This document shows, in pieces, positions 21,192 to 42,300 of a stretch of DNA of 64,000 nucleotides. The notes beneath the pieces were generated by a model. It was not told the DNA's origin. It searched no databases and saw only the letters and a program-made list of their open reading frames with translations. The position numbers were made by a program, and so were the translations under genes. Each line of letters starts with the position of its first letter. Position 1 is the first letter of the stretch. This DNA comes from Acidimicrobiales bacterium. GTDB taxonomy: Bacteria > Actinomycetota > Acidimicrobiia > Acidimicrobiales > JACCXE01. The DNA is taken from the NCBI GenBank assembly GCA_035546775.1, contig DASZWD010000030.1:124001-188000 (forward strand), given 5' to 3'.

Positions 21192-22439
21192 TCACAGGCC
21201 TCCGACCCCAAACATCTCGGCGACCCGCACCGCGCTTTCGACCCCGTCCTCGTGGAAGCCCCACCCCCAGTAGGCGCCGCAGTAGTGGGTGCGGTTGACG
21301 CCGCTGATCTCCTTGTGCCGCCGCTGGGCGTCACGGCCCGCAGCCGTGAACACCGGATGGGCGTAATCGATGCGCTGGATGACCGTGGACGGGTCGATCG
21401 CCGCGGTGTGGTTGAGCGTGACGCAGAACTCGCGGTCGGCCCGCAGCGACTGGAGGCGGTTCATGTAATACGTGACCGTCGTCAGCGGGGGCGGGTCGGC
21501 CAGCAGGTGGAAGTTCCAGCTCGCCCAGGCCCGCCGCCGCCGCGGCAGCAGCGAACGGTCGGTGTGCAGCACGGCCTCGTTGTGCTGGTACGGAATGGCG
21601 CCGAGGATCTCGTGTTCGCGACCTGACGCGTCGGTCAACCGCCGCAGCGCCTGGTCGGAGTGCACCGCGAACACCACTTCGTCGAAGCGCCGCGCCTCGC
21701 CGCCTGTGGGCTGCACCAGCACGTGGTCGTCGAGACGCGTCACCGCCGCCACCGGCGCCTTCACGTGAATCCGGTCGCGCATCGGGGCCACGAGCGCTTC
21801 GACGTAGCGGTGCGAACCGCCCACCACTGTGCGCCACTTCGGCCGCCCGCGAATGGCGAGCATGCCGTGGTTGTCGAAGAACTCGGCGAGGAACGACGCC
21901 GGGAACTCCCACATCTGGCGTGGATCGGCCGACCACACCGACGAGGCCTGCGGCACGATCAGCCGGTCGATGAAGGCCCGCGAGAAACGCTTGCGCTCGA
22001 GCCAGGCGCCGAGCGATTCGTCGCCCTCGGGGTCGTCGAGCAGTTCGCTCGCTTCGCGGTGGAAGCGGTTGAGGTCGTTGAGCATCCGGTAGAAGCCGGG
22101 TTGGAGGGCGTGGGTGCGCTTGGCGAAGATGCCGTTGACGCCGGTGCTGGCGTACTCGAAATCGCCGTGGTCGTCGGTGACCGAAAAGCTCATGTCCGAG
22201 GGCTGCCAGCCCACGCCGAGGGTGCGCAACAACCGCTCGAATAGCGGGTAGTTGCGGTCGTTGAACACGATGAAGCCGGTGTCGACCCAGTACGTGTTGT
22301 CGGCGGTGTCGACCCGGACGGTGTTGGTGTGGCCGCCGATGTAGTCGCCGGCCTCGAAGACCGTGACGGCGTGTTTGCGCCGCAAGAGGTGGGCGGCTAC
22401 GAGTCCCGAGACGCCGCCGCCGATGACCGCGATCTCCAC
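21192..22439 (-). CDS. FAD-dependent amine-oxidase-fold oxidoreductase (COG2907-like)
   Basis: A 415-residue flavoprotein starting with GTG 22439. VIGGGVSGLVAAHLLRR is the FAD-binding Rossmann motif and FEAGDYIGGHTNTV the second FAD motif; WVDTGFIVFNDRNYPLF and YCGAYWGWGFHEDGV are characteristic of COG2907 proteins. These are repeatedly found next to DUF1365 and cyclopropane-synthase genes, as here, and are implicated in modifying membrane fatty acids. It is divergent from the methyltransferase at 22471 with shared inverted repeats between them. Confidence 0.85.
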   Translation of the reverse strand: MEIAVIGGGVSGLVAAHLLRRKHAVTVFEAGDYIGGHTNTVRVDTADNTYWVDTGFIVFNDRNYPLFERLLRTLGVGWQPSDMSFSVTDDHGDFEYASTGVNGIFAKRTHALQPGFYRMLNDLNRFHREASELLDDPEGDESLGAWLERKRFSRAFIDRLIVPQASSVWSADPRQMWEFPASFLAEFFDNHGMLAIRGRPKWRTVVGGSHRYVEALVAPMRDRIHVKAPVAAVTRLDDHVLVQPTGGEARRFDEVVFAVHSDQALRRLTDASGREHEILGAIPYQHNEAVLHTDRSLLPRRRRAWASWNFHLLADPPPLTTVTYYMNRLQSLRADREFCVTLNHTAAIDPSTVIQRIDYAHPVFTAAGRDAQRRHKEISGVNRTHYCGAYWGWGFHEDGVESAVRVAEMFGVGGL

Positions 22440-22443
22440 GGAA

Positions 22444-22476
22444 TGTCATCCGGTGCCGCCCGGGCTCCGGATGACA
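22444..22476. promoter_or_regulatory. inverted repeat, copy 1 of lipid-cluster operator
   Basis: TGTCATCCGG and CCGGATGACA form a perfect 10-bp inverted repeat separated by 13 bp, lying between divergent genes and overlapping the start codon of the plus-strand methyltransferase. The same halves, fused, recur at 24357-24370. Confidence 0.65.
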
Positions 22477-23526
22477 GATATGACGGCTCGCCGCTACGAA
22501 CTGCTCGATCGCGCTCTCAGCCTCGGGGTCGTGCCCGACGCCGCGCTGCGACTCGGATCACGCCTCAGCGCCTGGAACCGGGAGCGCAACGAGGCGCGCG
22601 GCGGCGTCGAAGCCCAGGAGCGCCGCAGCGCCGACATCGTCGCCCACATGTCGACCGGGCCGGTGGCCGAGCTGCCCGCCAAGGCGAACGAGCAGCACTA
22701 CGAACTGCCGGCCGATTTCATGGCGCTGTTCATGGGGGCGCGGCGCAAGTACAGCTGCTGCTACTGGCCCGCGGGCGTCGACACCCTCGACGCCGCCGAG
22801 GACGCCATGCTGCGCCTCACCTGCGAACGGGCGCGCATCGCCGACGGCATGCAGGTCCTCGACCTCGGCTGCGGCTGGGGCGCGCTGTCGCTGTGGATGG
22901 CGGAGCACTACGACGTGTGCATTGTGGCGGTGTCGAACTCGCAGTCGCAGCGCGCCTGGATCGAAGCCGAACGCGACCGCCGGGGGCTGACCGAGAAGCT
23001 CGAAGTGATCACCGCCGACGTCAACGCATTCGAGCCCGAAGGCAGCTTCGATCGCGTCGTGTCCGTCGAGATGTTCGAGCACATGCGCAACTGGAAGGAG
23101 CTGCTGCACCGCATCTCCACGTGGCTAAAGCCCGATGGCCTGCTGTTCGTCCACGTGTTCTCGCACCGCAGCCTCGCCTACCGCTTCGCCGACACCTGGG
23201 CGTCGGAGCGATTCTTCACCGCCGGCACGATGCCGTCGCACGACCTGTTGCTCCGCTTCGGTGAGGACTTCGCCGTGCGTGAGCGCTGGGCGCTCGACGG
23301 TTCGCACTACGCCAAGACGCTCGCCGCGTGGCTCGAGCGCTTCGACGCCCGCCGCGACGAGGCCCTCGCCGTCCTGCGCCGGGACCGTTCCGAGTCCGAG
23401 GCCCGCCGCCTTGTCGCCACGTGGCGACTGTTCTTCATCTCTACGAAGGAGATTTGGAGCTGGCGCCGGGGGAACGCCTGGATGGTGTCGCACTACCTGC
23501 TCGATCCGTCGCCTGCGCAGCGATAG
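22471..23526 (+). CDS. cyclopropane-fatty-acid-synthase-like methyltransferase 1
   Basis: A 351-residue SAM-dependent methyltransferase (345-350 depending on which ATG, 22471 or 22480, is used). The SAM motif VLDLGCGWGALSLWMA is near residue 130, SVEMFEHMRNW follows at about 195, and WASERFFTAGTMPSHDLL and WRLFFISTKEIW mark the C-terminal region. It lacks the longer N-terminal domain of classical Cfa and resembles the shorter coclaurine N-methyltransferase-like branch. Probable target is an unsaturated acyl chain. Its end overlaps the opposite-strand hydrolase by 86 bp. Confidence 0.82.
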   Translation: MTDMTARRYELLDRALSLGVVPDAALRLGSRLSAWNRERNEARGGVEAQERRSADIVAHMSTGPVAELPAKANEQHYELPADFMALFMGARRKYSCCYWPAGVDTLDAAEDAMLRLTCERARIADGMQVLDLGCGWGALSLWMAEHYDVCIVAVSNSQSQRAWIEAERDRRGLTEKLEVITADVNAFEPEGSFDRVVSVEMFEHMRNWKELLHRISTWLKPDGLLFVHVFSHRSLAYRFADTWASERFFTAGTMPSHDLLLRFGEDFAVRERWALDGSHYAKTLAAWLERFDARRDEALAVLRRDRSESEARRLVATWRLFFISTKEIWSWRRGNAWMVSHYLLDPSPAQR

Positions 23527-24361
23527 GGCCGATCACGTCGGCGGCGATCCGACGGTAGAGCTCTCCGTCGAACAGATCGCTGGCGTGGCCGTGACCCGGA
23601 CGCCACCACACCGTCGCCGTCGTGCCGGCGCGTGCCGCCAGTGCCTCGACCTGATCGGCGCCGAAGTACCAGTCGTCGGGGTCGTGGACGAGCAGCAGCG
23701 GTGCCGGGGCGATGTTCGCCACGACGTCGATCGGGTCGCACCACCCGAGCCCGGCCACGTCGACGAGGCGCACGCGCATGAACAACCGCATCCCGCCCCG
23801 GGTGATGCCAGAGCTGGCGGCGCGCAGGAGCCGAGCGACGCCTTGGCGTGGCCGCTCCGGCGTCCACCAACCCGGACCCGAGATCGAAACGACGGCGTCG
23901 GGGACCCGCAGGCCGCGTTCGGCTGCCGTGCCGCAGTACACGACCGAAGCCGCCGCGCCCAGGCTGACGCCGACCAGAACGAGCGCCTGGCCCGCCGGCA
24001 CGGCGGCGACGGCGGCGGCGACGTCAGCGGACTCGACCGAGCCGAGCGTGCTGGCGCCGCCCGAGTGCCCGTGGCCCCGCAACTCGAGCACCACGACGTT
24101 GGCGTGGGCCGCCATGGCCGAGGCGAACTCGACCAGCTTGGAATGACGATGCCAGTGCCCGAATCCGGGGGCGATGAGGACGGTCACCCCGCTGGTCGGC
24201 GGGCCGGCGAGCGTGACGGTATGCAGCCGCACGCCATCGCTGGTGGTGACGTAGCCGTCGACCCCGGCGCGGTAGCGCGGGGCGATGACGTAGTTGCGCA
24301 TCCAGGCTCCGAGCACACCACCGAGACGCATCGCAGCTTTCCTACGGGGCTGATCCGTCAT
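23441..24361 (-). CDS. alpha/beta hydrolase in lipid cluster
   Basis: A 306-residue protein with APGFGHWHRHSK, RGHGHSGGAS, a nucleophile elbow VGVSLGAAASV and late acid/His motifs VHDPDDWYFG and WRPGHGHASD. The ATG at 24361 lies within the palindrome GTCATCCGGATGAC. It is divergent from DUF1365 and convergent with the methyltransferase, overlapping it at the 3' end. The family suggests an esterase, lipase or thioesterase; membership of the lipid-modifying cluster is the only clue to substrate. Confidence 0.78.
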   Translation of the reverse strand: MTDQPRRKAAMRLGGVLGAWMRNYVIAPRYRAGVDGYVTTSDGVRLHTVTLAGPPTSGVTVLIAPGFGHWHRHSKLVEFASAMAAHANVVVLELRGHGHSGGASTLGSVESADVAAAVAAVPAGQALVLVGVSLGAAASVVYCGTAAERGLRVPDAVVSISGPGWWTPERPRQGVARLLRAASSGITRGGMRLFMRVRLVDVAGLGWCDPIDVVANIAPAPLLLVHDPDDWYFGADQVEALAARAGTTATVWWRPGHGHASDLFDGELYRRIAADVIGPIAAQATDRAGSATPSRRSPGASSKSPS

Positions 24362-24370
24362 CCGGATGAC
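24357..24370. promoter_or_regulatory. perfect palindrome, copy 2 of lipid-cluster operator
   Basis: GTCATCCGGATGAC is a perfect 14-bp palindrome between the divergent hydrolase and DUF1365 genes, 21 bp before the latter. It is made of the same half-sites as 22444-22476, so a single dimeric regulator could bind both regions. Confidence 0.65.
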
Positions 24371-24391
24371 CCGTGGCGACGGATAGAGGTC

Positions 24392-25117
24392 ATGGCCGTG
24401 GGAACCGCCAGCGCCGTGTACGAGGGCACCGTGCGCCACCGCCGCTACACCGAGCACCCCCAGGTGTTCACGCACCGCGTCGCCATGGCGTACCTCGACC
24501 TCGCCGAGATGCCGACGTCGTTAGGCAGCGGGTTCAGCTTCGAGCGGTCCGACTTCATGGGCGACCCCGCCCAACCGCTCGACGAGTGCGTACGCGACGC
24601 CGTCGCCGCGGGGCTCGCCTTCCGGCCGACCGGGGCCGTCCGCCTGTTGACGACGCTGCGCAGCTTCGGCCACAGCTTCAACCCGGCCAGCTTCTACTAC
24701 TGCTTCGACGAATCGGACCGATTGCAGGCCGTCGCCGTCGAGGTGACCAACACTCCGTGGCGTGAACGTCACACCTACGTCATGGCGTGCGACCCCGAAC
24801 GCACGACCACGGCGAGGGTGACCAAGCGCCTCCACGTCTCCCCGTTCTTGGACATGGATCACACCTACAACTTCACCCTCCGCCCGCCCTCGAGCACGCT
24901 GTTCGTGCACATCGACAACTTCCAGGACGATCGGCGCGTGTTCGACGCCACGCTGCACCTCGAACGCCAACCGTTCGATCGCGCCACGCTGCGCCGCATC
25001 GCCTGGCGATATCCGCTCCCGAGCCGGCGTCATCTCGCACTGATCTACGGTCACGCTGCCGCGCTGTCGGCCCGGGGCGTGAAGGTGCGGCGTCACCGCA
25101 AGGCGGTCTCCGCGTGA
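24392..25117 (+). CDS. DUF1365 family protein
   Basis: A 241-residue protein of DUF1365. It begins with YEGTVRHRRYTEHPQVFTHRVAMAYLDL, the family signature, followed by LRSFGHSFNPASFYYCFD near residue 95 and KRLHVSPFLDMDHTYNF near 150. The biochemical role is not established, but the gene is almost always next to COG2907 and Cfa-like genes, which matches this locus. ATG 24392 was chosen at the conserved start. Its TGA overlaps the next methyltransferase ATG. Confidence 0.88.
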   Translation: MAVGTASAVYEGTVRHRRYTEHPQVFTHRVAMAYLDLAEMPTSLGSGFSFERSDFMGDPAQPLDECVRDAVAAGLAFRPTGAVRLLTTLRSFGHSFNPASFYYCFDESDRLQAVAVEVTNTPWRERHTYVMACDPERTTTARVTKRLHVSPFLDMDHTYNFTLRPPSSTLFVHIDNFQDDRRVFDATLHLERQPFDRATLRRIAWRYPLPSRRHLALIYGHAAALSARGVKVRRHRKAVSA

Positions 25118-26382
25118 TGCCGGCGCAGACGGCGCGCCGCGCCGCCCTGACGGTGCTGCGGCGAATTCGCGTCGGGCAACTCACGATCCACGATCACACC
25201 GGTGAAGTCATCGTGTGCGGGCCCGGCGGCGACGGCCCACGCGCCGAGGTGTTCGTCCGCGACGAGCGGGCCTGGCGGCTCGTGCTGCGCGGCAGCCGCG
25301 GCATCGTCGACGGGTACGTCGACGGATGGTGGGACACACCCGATCTGACGGCGGTGTTCCGCGTGGCGGCGCGCAACATCGGGCGCGCCGACCGGCTCGT
25401 GGCGAAGCTCTCACCGATACGCACGCCATGGCTGCGCCTGCGCAGCGGGTTCGTGCGGAACACGCCGAGCCGGAGCCGCAAGGACATCTCGGCGCACTAC
25501 GACCTGGGTAACGACATGTTCGCGTTGTGGCTCGACCCGCGACTGATGTACTCGTGCGCCTTCTTCGCCGAACGCGACACGCCGCTCGCCGAGGCCGCTG
25601 AGGCCAAGCTCGAGGCGACCTGCCGCAAGCTCGACCTGCGCGCCGACGACCACCTGCTCGAGATCGGCACCGGCTGGGGCGGCTTCGCCGTCTACGCCGC
25701 CACGACGCGGGGCTGTCGGGTCACCACGACCACCATCTCGCGCGAGCAGTACGACGAGGCCGTCGCCCGCGTGAAAGCGGCCGGCGTCGACCACCTCGTC
25801 GAGGTACGCCTCGACGACTACCGTGAGCTCACCGGCACCTACGACAAGCTCGTATCCATCGAGATGATCGAAGCCGTCGGCTACCGCGACTTCGACACCT
25901 TCTTTGCCCGCTGCTCGGCGCTCCTGAAGCCCGACGGCCTCATGGTGTTGCAGGCGATCACGATCGACGATCGCAGCTTCGAGATCTCGAAGGACGCCCG
26001 CAGCTTCATCCGCACCTACATCTTCCCCAACGGCTGCTTGCCCTCGGTCGAAGTGATGGCGCATCACGTCAAGCACGACACCGACATGCGGACGCTGCGC
26101 CTCGACGACTACGCGGACCACTACGCCGAGACGCTGCGGCGCTGGCGAAACAACTTCGAGGCTGCCACCGACGCGCTCGACGCGCTGGGTTACGACGAGC
26201 GCTTCCGCCGGTTGTGGCGCGCGTACCTCTGCTACTGCGAGGCCGGCTTCGACGAGCGCCACGTCGGCCTCGTGCAGCTGGTCCTGGCGAAGCCGCTGTA
26301 TCGCGCCGACGGCGTGCCGGAACGCGCCACGCACGACGCGCCGACGGCGTCATCGGTCCAGCGCTCCTACGCTACGAGGTGA
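25117..26382 (+). CDS. cyclopropane-fatty-acyl-phospholipid synthase family protein 2
   Basis: A 421-residue member of the Cfa family with the full N-terminal domain (residues 1-120) and a SAM methyltransferase domain: KDISAHYDLGNDMFALWLD, YSCAFF, LLEIGTGWGGFAVYAA near residue 185, SIEMIEAVGYRDFDTFF near 250. It transfers a methylene or methyl group to double bonds of phospholipid acyl chains. It is coupled to DUF1365 (TGATG) and followed in the same way by the dioxygenase. Product could be cyclopropane or methyl-branched lipid. Confidence 0.92.
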   Translation: MPAQTARRAALTVLRRIRVGQLTIHDHTGEVIVCGPGGDGPRAEVFVRDERAWRLVLRGSRGIVDGYVDGWWDTPDLTAVFRVAARNIGRADRLVAKLSPIRTPWLRLRSGFVRNTPSRSRKDISAHYDLGNDMFALWLDPRLMYSCAFFAERDTPLAEAAEAKLEATCRKLDLRADDHLLEIGTGWGGFAVYAATTRGCRVTTTTISREQYDEAVARVKAAGVDHLVEVRLDDYRELTGTYDKLVSIEMIEAVGYRDFDTFFARCSALLKPDGLMVLQAITIDDRSFEISKDARSFIRTYIFPNGCLPSVEVMAHHVKHDTDMRTLRLDDYADHYAETLRRWRNNFEAATDALDALGYDERFRRLWRAYLCYCEAGFDERHVGLVQLVLAKPLYRADGVPERATHDAPTASSVQRSYATR

Positions 26383-27149
26383 TGCTGACAGAGGAGCAGT
26401 TGGCGCAGTACGCCGAAGTCGGATACGTCCGCATCGAGCGGTTCAGCGACGCCGCGACGTGCCAGGCGATGCTGGACCGCGTGATCGCGGTGGCGCGGGC
26501 CCACGCCGAAGGTGATCGTTCAGCCGGGTGGCTGCTGCCCGAGGCGAACCTCGCCGGGACCGCGGGCCGACCCGAGCAACTTGTCGCGAAAATCTTCCGG
26601 CTGCATCGCGACTCGGTGTTCCACGAGTGGATCACGGCGCCTGCCGTCGTCGACATCGCCGCCGACCTCATCGGGTCGCCCGACGTCGACTGCTTCCTGT
26701 CGCAGTTCATCTTCAAGAACCCGGGCGCGTGGGGCCAGCCCTGGCACCAGGACAGCCATTACTTCGCCTTCGGCCCCGAAAACGGCGGGCGGCCGATCGT
26801 CGGTCTGTGGCTGGCGGTGACGGATGCAACGCTCGAGAACGGCTGCTTGTGGGTCGTGCCCGGCTCGCACCACGAGCCCGTGCACGAGCACGTCGACGAC
26901 CGCCGCCCCGGCGCTAACTACGGCTACCGCGAAATCGTCGACTTCGACACGTCGGCGCAGGTACCCGTGCTGATGCACGCCGGGGACCTACTCCTATTCG
27001 ACAGCCACCTCATGCACCGCTCGACCGACAACGTCAGCAACGGCATCCGCGCCGCCATGGTGTACCACTGCGCAGCCACCGGGACGGTGGACCTCGCCGA
27101 TCACCCCATCAACGACTTCATGACGGTGCGGAGCGTGTCGAACCGCTGA
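26382..27149 (+). CDS. phytanoyl-CoA dioxygenase (PhyH) family protein
   Basis: A 255-residue Fe(II)/2-oxoglutarate dioxygenase. The iron ligands are visible as HxD in WHQDSHYF (near residue 125) and a distal His in DSHLMHRSTDN (near 210), with a basic residue nearby for 2-oxoglutarate. NGCLWVVPGSH is typical of PhyH proteins. It is the last gene of the DUF1365-Cfa unit, so a hydroxylation on a fatty chain or lipid head group is plausible. Its end overlaps the opposite-strand phosphatase by 49 bp. Confidence 0.88.
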   Translation: MLTEEQLAQYAEVGYVRIERFSDAATCQAMLDRVIAVARAHAEGDRSAGWLLPEANLAGTAGRPEQLVAKIFRLHRDSVFHEWITAPAVVDIAADLIGSPDVDCFLSQFIFKNPGAWGQPWHQDSHYFAFGPENGGRPIVGLWLAVTDATLENGCLWVVPGSHHEPVHEHVDDRRPGANYGYREIVDFDTSAQVPVLMHAGDLLLFDSHLMHRSTDNVSNGIRAAMVYHCAATGTVDLADHPINDFMTVRSVSNR

Positions 27150-28095: not shown

Positions 28096-28427
28096 GGCTC
28101 CATGGTCTCACATGACATCTGAGCCCAAACAGCAGCGCGTCGCCGCGTCGAAAGCCATCAGGTTTGGGACCTCTGGCAGTGAAGCAGCGGACGCGTCGTA
28201 CGCCGGTCGGCCGCGCCAGCGTCCCCCCTTGTTGGTGCCCTGCGCCTCTACTGCCGGACTCGTGTGGGCCGTACTCCTTGAGCATGCCGGAGAGAAAACC
28301 GGTGGGGCGATGCACAGATCTGCGGACCGCGCAGCGGTCGCCACTGGTCCGCAAGGAGCGAATGGCGAGACCGACGCCTCGACACCACGCAGCGGGAGTC
28401 GCTGCCCTTTGGAAACGGAGACAACTC
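28096..28427 (+). other. 332-bp gap with structured leader of the export operon
   Basis: No convincing gene is present; in-frame upstream residues of the TasA-like ORF look random. Near the operon the sequence can fold: TGCGGACC (28321-28328) pairs with GGTCCGCA (28346-28353), and GACCGC/GCGGTC offers an alternative hairpin over the same bases. I found no match to a riboswitch consensus I know. A promoter must lie here but no clear -35/-10 pair stands out. Confidence 0.4.
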
Positions 28428-29048
28428 ATGAACCGAAAGATTCTGTGGTCTGGTCTCGCGATCGCGGTCGCAGCGACCACGATTGGTGCGGGAGCTTTCG
28501 CCACGTACGTCGACTCGGATACGTCGGCACAGGTCGACGTGACGGCCGGCACGCTCAAGCTCGAAGTCGGTGGCAGTGCCGCGACGGTTGACTACGACGT
28601 CGCCAACGCCTATCCCGGTTCCGACACTGGAGTGGGCCACGGCTTCGTCCTCCAGAACACCGGGACCCTGCCCGGCAACCTGCACGTTTACCTCGTGAAG
28701 GACGCTGACGCGGAGAACGGCATGGTCGATCCCGAGACCGACGCGCCCGACACGGACCCAGTCGGCGGCGAGATCGACAACTGGCTCAAGGTCAACGTCG
28801 ACGGCAACTCGTTCGGCTATGGCGGCACGGTCCCATCGATGGGACTCGACACCCTGGCCGTCGGTGGCTCCGAAGAGATCACCGACCTGATCTGGGGTCC
28901 TCACCCGATTCTGATCCCGGCCGGAGACCAGTACCCGGCTGCTCCCTTCGAGTTGTGGTTCGGATGGAAGATCTCGGATGACGCGACCAACCAGATCCAA
29001 TCGGACTCGCTGTCGTTCCATCTCGAGTTCGTGTTGGAACAGGCCTGA
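28428..29048 (+). CDS. TasA/camelysin-like secreted protein with SipW-type signal
   Basis: A 206-residue exported protein. Residues 1-30 (MNRKILWSGLAIAVAATTIGAGAFATYVDSDTS) form the long signal peptide typical of SipW substrates, followed by the hallmark QVDVTAGTLKLEV. The mature part is beta-rich with NTGTLPGNLHVYL and WGPHPILIPAGDQYPA, as in the TasA/CalY (camelysin) family that builds extracellular fibres. A strong RBS GGAG precedes ATG 28428. It is followed by a hairpin and the dedicated signal peptidase. I expect a fibre or matrix subunit; polymerisation is not shown. Confidence 0.82.
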   Translation: MNRKILWSGLAIAVAATTIGAGAFATYVDSDTSAQVDVTAGTLKLEVGGSAATVDYDVANAYPGSDTGVGHGFVLQNTGTLPGNLHVYLVKDADAENGMVDPETDAPDTDPVGGEIDNWLKVNVDGNSFGYGGTVPSMGLDTLAVGGSEEITDLIWGPHPILIPAGDQYPAAPFELWFGWKISDDATNQIQSDSLSFHLEFVLEQA

Positions 29049-29057
29049 CCCTTCACG

Positions 29058-29094
29058 GTGGCCCGAGCGGTCGTAGCGACCGCTCGGGTCACCG
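29058..29094 (+). terminator. strong hairpin between tasA-like gene and signal peptidase
   Basis: Two 17-nt arms (GGTGGCCCGAGCGGTCG and CGACCGCTCGGGTCACC) pair with one mismatch around a TAG loop. No T-run follows, so it is probably a partial terminator or an mRNA-stabilising structure that keeps the structural protein above the peptidase. Confidence 0.65.
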
Positions 29095-29107
29095 GACGGT
29101 GCCCGTG

Positions 29108-29989
29108 ATGCGTAAAGCCACGAGACTTCTCACGATTGCAGCACAAGCGCTGGCGGTTGCGGCTGCCCTGACGGCGCTCACCATCCTGGTCGTGCCGCGC
29201 GCGTTCGGATGGCGGCTCGTCGACGTCCTGTCGGGGAGCATGACGCCGACCTATCCCGCTCGCTCGGTTCTGGCACTCGAGGCGGTGAACCCGTCACGCG
29301 TCCGCGCCGGTGACGTCATCGCGTTCCATCGCGGCGACGATCCCCGCACGCTTGTGACCCACCGCGTGGTGCGGGTTCAGCACTCCGGCGGACAACTCAG
29401 CTTCGTCACGAAAGGCGATGCCAACAGCGACGCCGATCGGGACCCGGTACCGGCCAGCGAACTACGCGGACGCGTCGTCTTCGGCGCCCCGCATCTGGGG
29501 TGGCTGGTCCAGACGGTCCACACTCCGGCCGGATACGCCGGACTGCTGCTGTTCCCCGGCATGCTGGTCATCGCCAACGAAATCGGCTCGATCCGCCGCG
29601 AACTGCGCGGCGGCGCCTCGGCGGGCGAGGCGGGCGCGGACGGCACGACTCGGCAAGTTCTCTTGGCGACGATCGCCGCCGACTGGACGCAACTGCTCAG
29701 CATCGCCGATCTCACCACGCGAGCGGGGGGCAGCATCGAAGTGGTCGGACCGGCGTCGATCACGGTCGCGCTCGTGGCGGAGCCGGCGCGGGTCCGCGCG
29801 TTCGAAGAGGCGTTGCAGCGCTATGGCGTTGTCGCCTCGGCGAAGTCCCGAGCCGTCACCGTGCCCGCGCCGGCAGGGCTCGGCGATGACGTCGACGGCT
29901 CGACCGCCGCCCGACTCGACCTCGGAATGAAGACCATGGCCGTCGCCTTGCGCACCAACCACGGGTCGGCCGCGGGAGAGGAAGAGTGA
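29108..29989 (+). CDS. sipW: SipW-type signal peptidase I with cytoplasmic extension
   Basis: A 293-residue S26 peptidase. After one membrane helix, DVLSGSMTPTYPARSVL holds the catalytic Ser near residue 46, and TLVTHRVVRV a histidine where bacterial enzymes carry lysine: the Ser-His type of SipW and eukaryotic signal peptidases. GDANSDADRDPVP and a second membrane helix GYAGLLLFPGMLVIA near residue 150 complete the fold. About 120 further residues, including GSIEVVGPASITVALVAEPARVRAFEEAL, form an unusual C-terminal domain. Its TGA overlaps the next ATG. It should process the proteins encoded at 28428 and 30699. Confidence 0.88.
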   Translation: MRKATRLLTIAAQALAVAAALTALTILVVPRAFGWRLVDVLSGSMTPTYPARSVLALEAVNPSRVRAGDVIAFHRGDDPRTLVTHRVVRVQHSGGQLSFVTKGDANSDADRDPVPASELRGRVVFGAPHLGWLVQTVHTPAGYAGLLLFPGMLVIANEIGSIRRELRGGASAGEAGADGTTRQVLLATIAADWTQLLSIADLTTRAGGSIEVVGPASITVALVAEPARVRAFEEALQRYGVVASAKSRAVTVPAPAGLGDDVDGSTAARLDLGMKTMAVALRTNHGSAAGEEE

Positions 29990-30699
29990 TGAAACGGATA
30001 CGCGTCGGAGCCGCGCTGGCCACGATCGCACTCGCCGCGCTCTATGGAGTTCCCGGAGCACCGGCCCGAGCAGCGGAGAGCGCTGCGTGGCTTTCGATCC
30101 CGGGCGCCCCGCCGTTATTCCACCTCAGCGGCATCGCCCCCGGGCAGGGAGAAGCCGCCACGTTCACGGTGACGAACCCGAACGCGTTCCCGGTCGAATT
30201 CGCGCTCGCGGTCCGTGATCTGCGTTCCGACGACCGCGGCTGCGACCGTCCCGAGAAGCAAGCGGGCGATACGACTTGCGGGCTGGGCGGCGGCGAGTTG
30301 CAGAACGACTTGCAGCTGTCGCTGTCCGTGCCCGACGACAGCGACCGCGCGGTGCACGTCGACACCCTCGACGACTGGAGCGACCAGTACGCCGTCGACT
30401 CCGTCCCTCTCGCCGCGCAAGAGTCGCGCACCTACGCGGTTGCCGACCTCTTGCCTCGCAGCTCCACCAACCTCACGCAGTCCGACCTGGTCTCGTTCGT
30501 GTTCGAGATGCGCATCGAGGAGGTGGCCGGTGGCACCAGCGTGGCGGGAGCCCAGATCACCCGCGTGCAAGGCACGCCCGCGCTCGGCGCGACAGGCCTC
30601 GACGTGAAGAGGCTCGTCGCCCCCGCATTAGAACTGATCGCCGCCGGGCTCGTACTGGTCGTGATCCAACAGATCCGCCTGACGAGGAGGCACACGTGA
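29989..30699 (+). CDS. secreted, C-terminally anchored protein of the export operon
   Basis: A 236-residue protein: signal peptide ending GAPARA, a beta-rich domain with GIAPGQGEAATFTVTNPN resembling a conserved extracellular Ig-like fold, two cysteines likely disulfide-bonded (GCDRPEKQAGDTTCG), and a C-terminal LGATG-like string, membrane helix VAPALELIAAGLVLVVI and basic tail. The end resembles a sortase signal but the proline is missing. It is coupled on both sides by TGATG junctions and may hold or guide the fibre proteins at the cell surface. Confidence 0.75.
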   Translation: MKRIRVGAALATIALAALYGVPGAPARAAESAAWLSIPGAPPLFHLSGIAPGQGEAATFTVTNPNAFPVEFALAVRDLRSDDRGCDRPEKQAGDTTCGLGGGELQNDLQLSLSVPDDSDRAVHVDTLDDWSDQYAVDSVPLAAQESRTYAVADLLPRSSTNLTQSDLVSFVFEMRIEEVAGGTSVAGAQITRVQGTPALGATGLDVKRLVAPALELIAAGLVLVVIQQIRLTRRHT

Positions 30700-31232
30700 T
30701 GCGTTGGCACCGTTCGCTCATCGCGATGACTTCCGTCGCCGCCGCCGGTGCGCTGATGTGCGGGACGTTTGTCTACGCGCGACTTGGCGACCGGGACTCG
30801 ACCGCCACCTACAGCATCACGGCCGGGACCTGGACGCCATCACCCCCGCCCGAGTGCGCAGGGATGGTGTTCACCCACGTCATCACCGGTACCGGGGGCG
30901 ATGACGTGCTCTACGGCACCGTTCACGCCGATCTCATATTCGGATTCGGGGGCAACGACGTCATTCACGGCGGCAATCAGGACGACTGCATCGTCGGCGG
31001 ACTCGGCGACGACACGCTCTACGGCGGCAACGGGAAGGACGTGCTGATCGGAGGCAACGGCGGCGACGTTCTCAACGGAGAAAACGGCAAAGATCGTCTC
31101 TTCGGCGGTGACGGCGACGACGTTCTCGATGGCGGGAACGCCCCGGACTTCCTCGACGGTGGTCAAGGCACCGACGCCTGCTCCTCTGCGCCTGGACCGG
31201 ACGCCGTGCTCAACTGCGAGCAGCCCGTGTAG
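30699..31232 (+). CDS. RTX-repeat calcium-binding protein with SipW-type N-terminus
   Basis: A 177-residue exported protein. Residues 1-30 are a hydrophobic signal, then ARLGDRDSTATYSITAGTWTP closely parallels the region after the signal in the TasA-like protein, so the same peptidase should cut it. From about residue 60 come some nine Gly-Gly-x-Gly-x-Asp nonapeptides (GGLGDDTLYGGNGKDVLIGG...), the calcium-binding parallel beta-roll of RTX proteins. It is far too small to be a toxin. Four cysteines flank the repeats. It is the last gene of the operon. Confidence 0.85.
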   Translation: MRWHRSLIAMTSVAAAGALMCGTFVYARLGDRDSTATYSITAGTWTPSPPPECAGMVFTHVITGTGGDDVLYGTVHADLIFGFGGNDVIHGGNQDDCIVGGLGDDTLYGGNGKDVLIGGNGGDVLNGENGKDRLFGGDGDDVLDGGNAPDFLDGGQGTDACSSAPGPDAVLNCEQPV

Positions 31233-39322: not shown

Positions 39323-42300
39323 ATGCGGCGACGAGTCGGTGCGTTGGTCGCCATTGTCGCCCTCGTAGTCGCGTCAGCCGGCGTGTTCTCGACCGCCGCG
39401 GCCGCCGCCACGGTCCGCATCACGAAGCAAACCCCGACGAGTGGGCCGGTCGGCACCAAGATCCACGTCGAGGGGACGGGATGTGCCGCTGGCGGCAGCT
39501 TCGAGGTCACGAACGGGTCGGGGGAACAATTCGCGTTCTCGTCCGCACCGACAGGCTCGTTCAGCTTCGATTACGCGGTGCCGCCCGCCGAAGCGGGCGA
39601 CCAGTCCCCCGACTCGGTGTACGAGACCGATCTGACGTGCAACGACACGAACCGCACGATTCCGGGCTCGACGTTCGAGATCACCGGGCCGGTGTTCACG
39701 TTGGTGCCGGCGTCGGCGCCGGTCGGCGCGACCGTGCACGTGGTCGGGCGCGGGTGCGTGCAGGACGGGTTTGGCGCCGACGATGGGCAGCTGTTGGTCG
39801 ACGGCAAGCCGGTGCGCACCTTCAAGGCCGACGGGAACTACGCATTCGACTTCACGTTCCCGGTGCCCGAAGGGCTGACCGTCGACCGCCAGTACGTCGT
39901 GCAGGTGAACTGCCTCATCCAGCGACTCGAGTCCGCGGCGGGCGAAGGCGGGCAACGGTACGTGTCGCCGGCCTTGCTCCTGGTGACGGCGGCAACGCCC
40001 GCGACGACGGTCACGAGCGCGCCACCGACTTCGGTGCGTCATGGCGAGAAGGCGGACACCGGCGCCCGCGCGGCGGCTAGGGTCGCGCTCGGTGTCGTCG
40101 CGGTCGTGGCGCTGGTGTTCGCGCTGGTGCTGCTGTTGTCGCCGACGGCACGCCGGCGACGCCGCCGTCGCCGCGACGCAGCGCGGGCTGCCTCCCCCGC
40201 CCCGGTTGTTGCACTGCCACTTCAGGTACCTAATCGAACAGTGGAGGAATCTGCACTGTTCGAACAGCTAGCTGATCTAACAGTGGAAGAACCCACCGAC
40301 GAGGACGCAATCGCGATGGAGGCCGCCCGGCTCGAAGCGGTGGCGGCAGAAGCGGCGCGACTCGAGCGGTTGCGGCTCGCCTCCGAAGAGGCCGAACGAA
40401 TCGCGGCGGAGGAAGCGGCTGAATGGCTCGCGGCCGAGGAGGAAGCGCGAGCCGCCGCCGAAGAAGCAGAAGCCGCACGCCTCGCCGCCGAAGAAGCAGA
40501 AGCCACACGCCTCGCCGCCGAAGAAGCAGAAGCCACAGCAGCAGCAGCAGCCGCGGCGGCGGCCGCGGCCGCGGCCGCTTATCCGCGCCGCACCGCGCCG
40601 TTGCGGGCGCGGCGCGTGGCGCCGGTGCGCCTTAAGAATGGGGACGTGTCCTATCCCGAGCCGCCCTACGCCGAACAACGCCCGCACGAGTTGACCGCGT
40701 TCGGCGACGTCCGCGTCGACCCGTACTACTGGCTACGCGAGCGCGACAACCCCGAAGTCATTGCCTACCTCGAAGCGGAGAACGCCTACACCGACACCGT
40801 CCTCGCACCGCTGGCTGACCTGCGCCAAGAGTTGTTCGACACGATCAAGGCACGCACGAAGGAAGACGACACGTCACCGCCGGTGCCGTTGCGCGACTGG
40901 GAGTACTACGTGCGCACCGCGCAGGGCGCGCAGTACCCGGACTCGTGCCGGCGTCCTCGGGGCAGCGGAGACGACGGCGAAGAGACGGTCATCCTCGACC
41001 GCAACACCATGGCCGAGGGTCACGACTATTTGTCCTGCGTCGGCCCGCGCGTGTCGCCGAGCGATCGCTACTGCCTCTACGCCACCGACTTCGACGGTTC
41101 GGAGAAGTACACGATGCGGGTGCGCGACCTCACCACGCTGCGCGACCTGCCCGACGAGATCCCCGACACCGCCGGCGACTCGTGCTGGGTGACCGACGAC
41201 GTCTTCCTCTACGTGATGCTCGACGACGCCCACCGCCCGTACCAGGTACGCCGTCACGTGCTCGGCGACGACCCGGCAGACGACCCGATCGTCTACCAAG
41301 ATGACGACGAGCGCTTCTTCGTGCACGTCGAACGCGACCTTGCCGGCCGCTTCGTGTTCGTGCGCTCGGGCAGCAAGATCTCGAACGAGGACCACTTCCT
41401 GCGCATCGACGATCCGCTCGGCCCGCTCACGGTCGTCGAACCGCGCGTCGACGGTCTCGAATACGAGACGTGCGACGACGGCGAGCGCTTCCTCATCCTC
41501 ACCAACGCTGATGGCGCGCGCGACTTCAAGGTCGTCGCTGCCGGCGTCGACAATCCCGGCCGCGCCCACTGGATCGACGTGCTCGCGCATCGCGAAGGCA
41601 CCCGCGTCACGGAGGTCGCAGCCTTCAAGACCTTCGTTGCCGTCGGCGAGCGGGCCAATGCCCTCACGACCATCCGCATCATCGACAAGGCGACGAGCGC
41701 GCAGCACGTCATGCATCACGCCGAGGCGGTCTACGCCGCCGAGATCGACGCCAACGCCGAGTTCGACACGACGAAGCTGCGTTTCACTTTCACGTCGCTC
41801 AACACGCCGATGACCTGGATCGACTACGACGTCGCCACGCGCCAGCCGACCGTCGTCAAGCAGACCGAGGTGCTCGACGACTTCTCGGCGTCGAACTACC
41901 GCACGGCGCGCGAGTGGGCGACGACCGAAGACGGCACCCGCATCCCGATATCCATCCTCTGCCCCCGCGACTTCGAACCCGACGGCACCACCCCGTGCCT
42001 GCTCTACGGCTACGGCTCCTACGAGATCTCGATCGACCCCTACTTCTCAATCCCGCGCCTCAACCTCGTCGACCGCGGCATCGTCTACGCCATCGCCCAC
42101 GTTCGGGGCGGCGGTGAGATGGGCCGCAACTGGTACGAGAACGGCAAGATGCTGCACAAGCGCAACACGTTCACCGACTTCATCGCCTGCGCTCGCCACC
42201 TCGTCGAGACCGGCTGGTGCGCGCCGGGCGAGCTGGTCGCCCGCGGCGGATCGGCCGGCGGTCTCCTCATGGGCGCCGTAGCGAACATGGCGCCCGAGTT

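Follow-up and report, generated by a model that had tools for sequence, protein, structure and literature searches.

Introduction

The closest described systems are SigK-RskA of mycobacteria and sigmaE-ChrR of Rhodobacter sphaeroides. The published consensus of SigK promoters has CATCC as its -35 element, and the genes Rv0449c to Rv0447c are presumably those of a FAD oxidoreductase, a DUF1365 protein and a Cfa-like protein. In mycobacteria (Mycobacterium tuberculosis), sigK controls its own expression via the Rv0449c promoter, sites for SigK are conserved throughout the Actinobacteria, and cysteines 133 and 183 of SigK are found in 94% of ECF18 and 56% of ECF19 (PMC7509140). For R. sphaeroides, the core regulon of sigmaE (RpoE, ECF11) and ChrR is described as including furan fatty acid genes along with the operon of the sigma factor itself (PMC6852236). 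Furan fatty acids there rise when ChrR is lost, and UfaO carries DUF1365; within the RSP1091-1087 operon, the ufaO gene adjoins the one for UfaD, a desaturase of FAD type (PMC7380195). Here we analyze a gene cluster of the same families in an Acidimicrobiales genome, within a stretch of 64 kb that we call the window, and ask how its two inverted repeats are best read.

Gene Content and Start Codons

The cluster includes a COG2907-like FAD-dependent oxidoreductase (21192-22439, minus strand; Amino_oxidase PF01593, 96.3 bits), putatively a UfaD-type desaturase, and, diverging from it, a CMAS/Cfa-like methyltransferase (22480-23526, plus strand; PF02353, 160.3 bits). A second divergent pair is formed by an alpha/beta hydrolase (23441-24331, minus strand; PF12697, 33.9 bits) and a DUF1365 protein that is UfaO-type by family (24392-25117, plus strand; PF07103, 206.8 bits). 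The DUF1365 gene opens an overlapping operon, its stop being overlapped by a second CMAS/Cfa-like methyltransferase gene (25117-26382, plus strand; PF02353, 277.1 bits) and the stop of the latter by a PhyH-family dioxygenase gene (26382-27149, plus strand; PF05721, 139.5 bits); because of this overlap the dioxygenase probably belongs to the same operon as DUF1365. The two CMAS methyltransferases are possible counterparts of UfaM, at the family level only. The cluster probably makes methylated or furan fatty acids. The claim that no regulator is encoded within the cluster was borne out for the seven proteins scanned against domain families. Further along the window, at 28164-31232 on the plus strand, a TasA/camelysin-like secreted protein, a signal-peptidase-like protein and an RTX-like glycine-rich-repeat protein follow in succession (assigned by eye).

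The initial annotation placed the start codon inside the repeat in two genes, such that a bound protein would block initiation directly. ATG triplets do lie within the motif (22471 on the plus strand and 24361 on the minus strand), but as start codons they are wrong for the methyltransferase and doubtful for the hydrolase. The methyltransferase N-terminus MTARR, read from 22480, is common to both copies of the locus in the congener G003, where the motif ATG is out of frame with the MTARR start; on sequence grounds the start is 22480 and not 22471. For the hydrolase, an in-frame ATG lies within the palindrome at 24361; we prefer the start at 24331, though this choice is not proven, because the best homolog (in G003) has a candidate ATG only three residues further out (by eye). 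Hydrolase homologs were found in 16 of 148 genomes of the order, our own included, with a query that began at 24331 and hence left out the 10 residues upstream. Given these start assignments, a block of the start codon by an operator can be rejected for the methyltransferase and is questionable for the hydrolase.

Predicted Promoters at the Inverted Repeats

The letters and coordinates of both repeats were confirmed. Site 1, between the FAD and methyltransferase genes, consists of TGTCATCCGG (22444-22453) and CCGGATGACA (22467-22476) with a 13-base gap, and the perfect palindrome GTCATCCGGATGAC lies at 24357-24370, between the hydrolase and DUF1365 genes. The window contains one copy of the 14-base palindrome when up to two mismatches are allowed, and shuffled sequences contain 0.54 on average, so that the palindrome alone is weak evidence.

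A directional pattern accounts for more of what stands at these sites. All four divergent genes are preceded by TCATCC, 16-17 bases and then CGGA or CGTA, with the start codon 8, 8, 9 or 11 bases further on. For the FAD oxidoreductase, on the minus strand, the predicted -35 element TCATCC (22469-22474) and the predicted -10 element CGGAT (22448-22452) are 16 nt apart (pattern match 22474-22449), and the -10 lies 8 nt before the GTG at 22439; the -35 is in the same place in G003. For the methyltransferase, on the plus strand, both sequence and pattern match give a predicted -35 TCATCC at 22446-22451, and the predicted -10 CGGAT at 22468-22472 follows after 16 nt, 7 nt before the ATG at 22480. 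The -35 of each gene overlaps the -10 of the other, and the repeat at 22444-22476 reads better as two putative promoters that face each other, each with its -35 on the other's -10. At the second site, the predicted -35 of DUF1365 (TCATCC, 24358-24363, plus strand) is the left half of the palindrome, with a predicted -10 CGGAT at 24380-24384, 16 nt from the -35 and 7 nt before the ATG at 24392. The right half is the predicted -35 of the hydrolase (TCATCC, 24364-24369, minus strand), with a predicted -10 CGTA at 24343-24346, 17 nt away and 11 nt before the ATG at 24331 (pattern match 24369-24343). This form, TCATCC-N17-CGTA, also stands before the sigma gene of G003; for the hydrolase we dropped CTATCC-N16-CGGATG, which has two mismatches, in its favor. 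The palindrome at 24357-24370 likewise reads better as two candidate -35 elements that touch back to back. We see no inverted symmetry except where two such putative promoters diverge.

Five matches to the directional element NCATCC-N15-17-CG[A/G/T]A occur in the window, four of them at the four cluster gene starts and the fifth, at 41952, within coding sequence. Restricted to TCATCC, there are four window matches against a shuffle mean of 1.3 (maximum 5 among 60 shuffles); this count is not striking by itself, but the placement at gene starts is. Genome-wide, the strict promoter TCATCC-N15-17-CGGAT has five matches, three of which are in the cluster; a search of the sigma loci for this strict form, with up to two mismatches allowed, gave nothing usable. 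The form CATCCN{16,17}CGNAN{7,9}RTG has 24, three within the 2 kb discussed here, against four for the reversed-pattern control. Visual inspection of open frame, third-position GC and protein sequence leads us to place five of these 24 at real gene starts, namely three cluster genes, a sigma operon on contig 72 and a TatA-like gene on contig 64. In a related genome scan, 24 of 27 matches were judged by eye to be background, some with the nominal start 7 nt on and inside a coding frame. The relaxed -10 (CGNA) was derived from sigma loci after the cluster had been seen and is thus partly post hoc, with shuffles and antisense counts as its control. The short TatA-like gene (by eye; G000:C64:2264, L252) has TCATCC-N17-CGTA-N8-ATG in front of it and is covered by an antisense open frame; it is a possible further member of the regulon.

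A Candidate Sigma Factor on Contig 72

The genome encodes 22 Sigma70_r2 proteins and a single RskA_C anti-sigma factor, whose gene directly follows an ECF sigma gene on contig 72. This anti-sigma factor contains RskA_C (51 bits; cut-off 29.4), RskA_N (27.7 bits; cut-off 27) and zf-HC2 domains, and it has no PDB match at E <= 0.01. The sigma factor finds SigK (4nqw) as the best of its 10 PDB matches (8e-29), followed by R. sphaeroides RpoE (1e-18), and the SigK model is the best of 66 in NCBIfam, with 170.9 bits against a curated cut-off of 226. Because it falls under this cut-off, and because its translation has no cysteine and so lacks the cysteines of most SigK proteins, we call it SigK-like rather than SigK. 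The operon, in the order cupredoxin, ferritin-like protein, sigma, RskA, lies on one strand at G000:C72:144370-147576 (L166:5371-8577, minus strand), the ferritin-like protein belonging to Ferritin_2; these neighbors may connect the sigma factor to metals or redox state. Its first gene is preceded by CCATCC-N17-CGGA-N8-GTG, with the same geometry as in the cluster. This operon promoter lies about 1.9 kb upstream of the sigma gene, which has no element directly before it, and was picked out once the pattern was known.

Among the 30 best loci of contig-72-type sigma factors, our own genome included, 25 have NCATCC-N15-17-CG[AGT]A in the stretch that runs from 120 nt upstream of the projected start to 25 nt downstream of it. 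The rate in dinucleotide shuffles is 0.95%, no antisense match turned up at any of the 30 loci, and ours is one of the five that lack the element. Exact TCATCC with CGAA occurs at 12 of the 30 best loci (shuffle rate 0.12%). In none of the 25 promoters does an inverted GGATG copy lie in the interval from the -35 to 8 nt beyond the -10. Since 25 of 30 loci carry the element and none of the 25 an inverted copy, the element would be a directional, autoregulatory promoter rather than an operator for a dimer. The -10 at these promoters is CGAA in 19 and CGTA in 6 and never CGGA, unlike three of the cluster sites, and this difference counts against the proposed SigK-like sigma factor as the reader of the cluster sites. 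At E <= 1e-20, the contig-72 sigma factor finds matches, paralogs among them, in 92 of 148 order genomes, and DUF1365 is present in 20, which suggests that elsewhere the main job of this sigma factor is something else.

Conservation in the Order and Beyond

The congener G003, the one other member of the genus examined, carries TCATCC-N17-CGGA in both directions between its FAD and methyltransferase genes, in two contig copies, with the FAD GTG 8 nt after CGGA. The gap between the arms is 14 bases there and 13 here, and the arms, which are perfect over 10 bp at site 1, measure 8-9 bp in the two G003 copies. G003 also has TCATCC-N17-CGTA ahead of its sigma gene and, read by eye, TCATCC-N16-CGTA ahead of a cupredoxin-like gene that diverges from it.

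Across the order, the expectation that the repeat would be kept in the same cluster of relatives had a mixed outcome: apart from the two genomes of the genus, none has the exact repeat at this locus, whereas the general element stands before the FAD gene in 5 of 18 relatives, the congener among them. The exact inverted repeat occurs anywhere in 6 of 397 order genomes, with 0 in every row of the reversed-pattern control. In the four of these genomes that lie outside the genus, no FAD gene was seen in the frames listed around the strict repeat. One strict inverted TCATCCGG repeat, in another member of the order (L162:1501-1528; G101:C7:48364-48391), shares bases with the 3' end of a DNA polymerase IV-like gene and is probably due to chance.

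The 18 FAD-gene upstream regions come from the 19 other genomes with DUF1365, the contig of G121 ending before its FAD gene. The element is found in G003, G012, G044, G057 and G123 (shuffle rate 0.33%), and in four of these five the -10 ends 8-9 nt before the FAD start; the antisense control gives 1 of 18, which the two-way site of G003 would account for. The 13 relatives without the element before the FAD gene count against the sigma reading and indicate that control of the cluster has changed often. Four order relatives without the TCATCC element have, ahead of the FAD gene, another perfect palindrome, TTTAGCACTAAA (L132:7999, L133:11448, L140:3045 and 3211, and L145:4106); there, the operon is probably under a distinct regulator.

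In L048, an Actinomycetes metagenome-assembled genome and the closest named contig, the sigma factor encoded upstream of the cluster best matches that of contig 72 (4.8e-37), the gene after it resembles RskA (by eye), and TGATCC-N16/17-CGTA has just two occurrences in 18.5 kb, one ahead of the sigma gene and one ahead of the FAD gene. In L139 (genome G088), the cluster-side sigma factor again best matches that of contig 72, and four matches of the element fall in 19 kb, two of them facing outwards between a fasciclin-like gene (by eye) and the divergent sigma gene; none stands before the FAD gene. The FAD gene, DUF1365 and the Cfa-like gene occur together in about 71 of 80 named contigs (L048-L127) from many phyla, several of the others being short, and on this count the cluster is far more widespread than the promoter type.

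Discussion

We consider it probable that the palindromes are overlapping divergent promoters for one SigK-like ECF sigma factor. The near-fixed distance to the start codon and the change of the arm gap from 13 to 14 between congeners suit a -35/-10 pair better than a dimer site. The UfaO- and UfaD-type gene families, together with the precedents of sigmaE-ChrR and SigK, make an ECF-sigma-controlled cluster for furan- or methyl-branched fatty acids the natural reading. We infer sigma binding, the start sites, the signal and the lipid product alike. Polymerase carrying the sigma factor would read TCATCC as the -35 and CGGA or CGTA as the -10, 16-17 bp apart, and transcription would begin near the start codons; the mRNAs of the FAD oxidoreductase, the methyltransferase and DUF1365 would have no leader or a very short one, and that of the hydrolase a short one. 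The predicted promoters at 24343-24384 would stand back to back, their two -35 elements forming the 14-bp palindrome. At 22446-22474 the facing promoters have bases in common, so that only one direction could be occupied at a time. The best candidate for the sigma factor would be the contig-72 ECF protein, held by the RskA-like anti-sigma factor encoded just after it; by analogy, its release by a signal, perhaps oxidative or light stress, may switch the cluster on. Of the proposal in the initial annotation that one operator joins the cluster, the part that survives is a single trans-acting factor encoded elsewhere, which is supported by inference; an operator that blocks initiation is not supported.

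The same ECF promoters could be read by another ECF sigma factor of the genome, or by one missing from an assembly that is 97.5% complete; 22 Sigma70_r2 proteins are at hand, an ATCC-type -35 may be common to several ECF groups, and G012 has the element before its FAD gene and yet no match to the contig-72 sigma factor at 1e-20. We judge this unlikely given that a search of the 400 nt before the region-2 match at all 22 sigma loci returned one match only (L023), 231 nt off, that the contig-72 operon is the only one holding a sigma gene among the matches judged to be real gene starts, and that the cluster-side sigma factors of L048 and L139 both point to contig 72.

Less probable still is a dimeric repressor or activator that co-regulates the cluster from inverted TCATCCGG half-sites. 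The perfect 10-bp arms at site 1 exceed the symmetry that two promoters strictly need, which counts against the sigma reading, and not only are arms of 8-9 bp kept in both G003 copies but the strict TCATCCGG..CCGGATGA arrangement is at this locus in both members of the genus. Against such a dimer, the half element stands single and in one orientation at 25 of the 30 sigma loci, the arm gap is not fixed, and both the CG-N-A element and the start distance would be left unexplained. A dimeric regulator may nonetheless act on the same bases besides the sigma factor. RNA hairpins (an attenuator or terminator) or mere chance are highly improbable, for although the GC-rich arms could pair in RNA, the genes diverge from the repeats, which would place a hairpin either at the start site or ahead of it, the repeats have no T-run, and the congener keeps the arms while its loop differs.

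If the palindromes are indeed superimposed promoters of a SigK-like sigma factor, they show that two ECF promoters, and not an operator, can underlie an inverted repeat between divergent genes, and a tempting misreading is corrected. A candidate regulator and promoter code would also become available for the widespread FAD gene-DUF1365-Cfa cluster. The same membrane-lipid genes may be the target on which both SigK-RskA and sigmaE-ChrR converge, and this is relevant to SigK, whose signal and lipid output are poorly known. As one joint and tentative suggestion, which we regard as possible but rather doubtful, SigK/RskA-type pairs would command furan-type fatty acid synthesis in Actinomycetota as sigmaE/ChrR does in Proteobacteria, the superimposed promoters would, in this genus, be a direction switch that fixes the ratio of desaturase to methyltransferase by competition for one sigma-holoenzyme, and the cupredoxin/ferritin module would provide the redox input. 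The literature searched lay mostly outside subscription papers, and within it we found none that joins SigK to furan fatty acids and none that describes superimposed ECF promoters of this shape.

Compared with the known systems, the locus shares features with each. As in sigmaE-ChrR of R. sphaeroides, an ECF sigma factor would be linked to UfaD/UfaO-type genes; unlike in that system, the anti-sigma factor is RskA-like, and the sigma factor matches RpoE more weakly (1e-18) than SigK (8e-29). In contrast to mycobacterial SigK-RskA, the sigma factor and the cluster are on separate contigs, the sigma gene stands beside cupredoxin and ferritin-like genes, the protein has no cysteines, the predicted -10 is CGGA or CGTA, and the cluster genes diverge from overlapping promoters. 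With SigK-RskA (ECF18/ECF19) the present system nevertheless has in common an ECF sigma factor with an adjacent RskA, SigK itself as the nearest solved relative, and a predicted CATCC -35 element.
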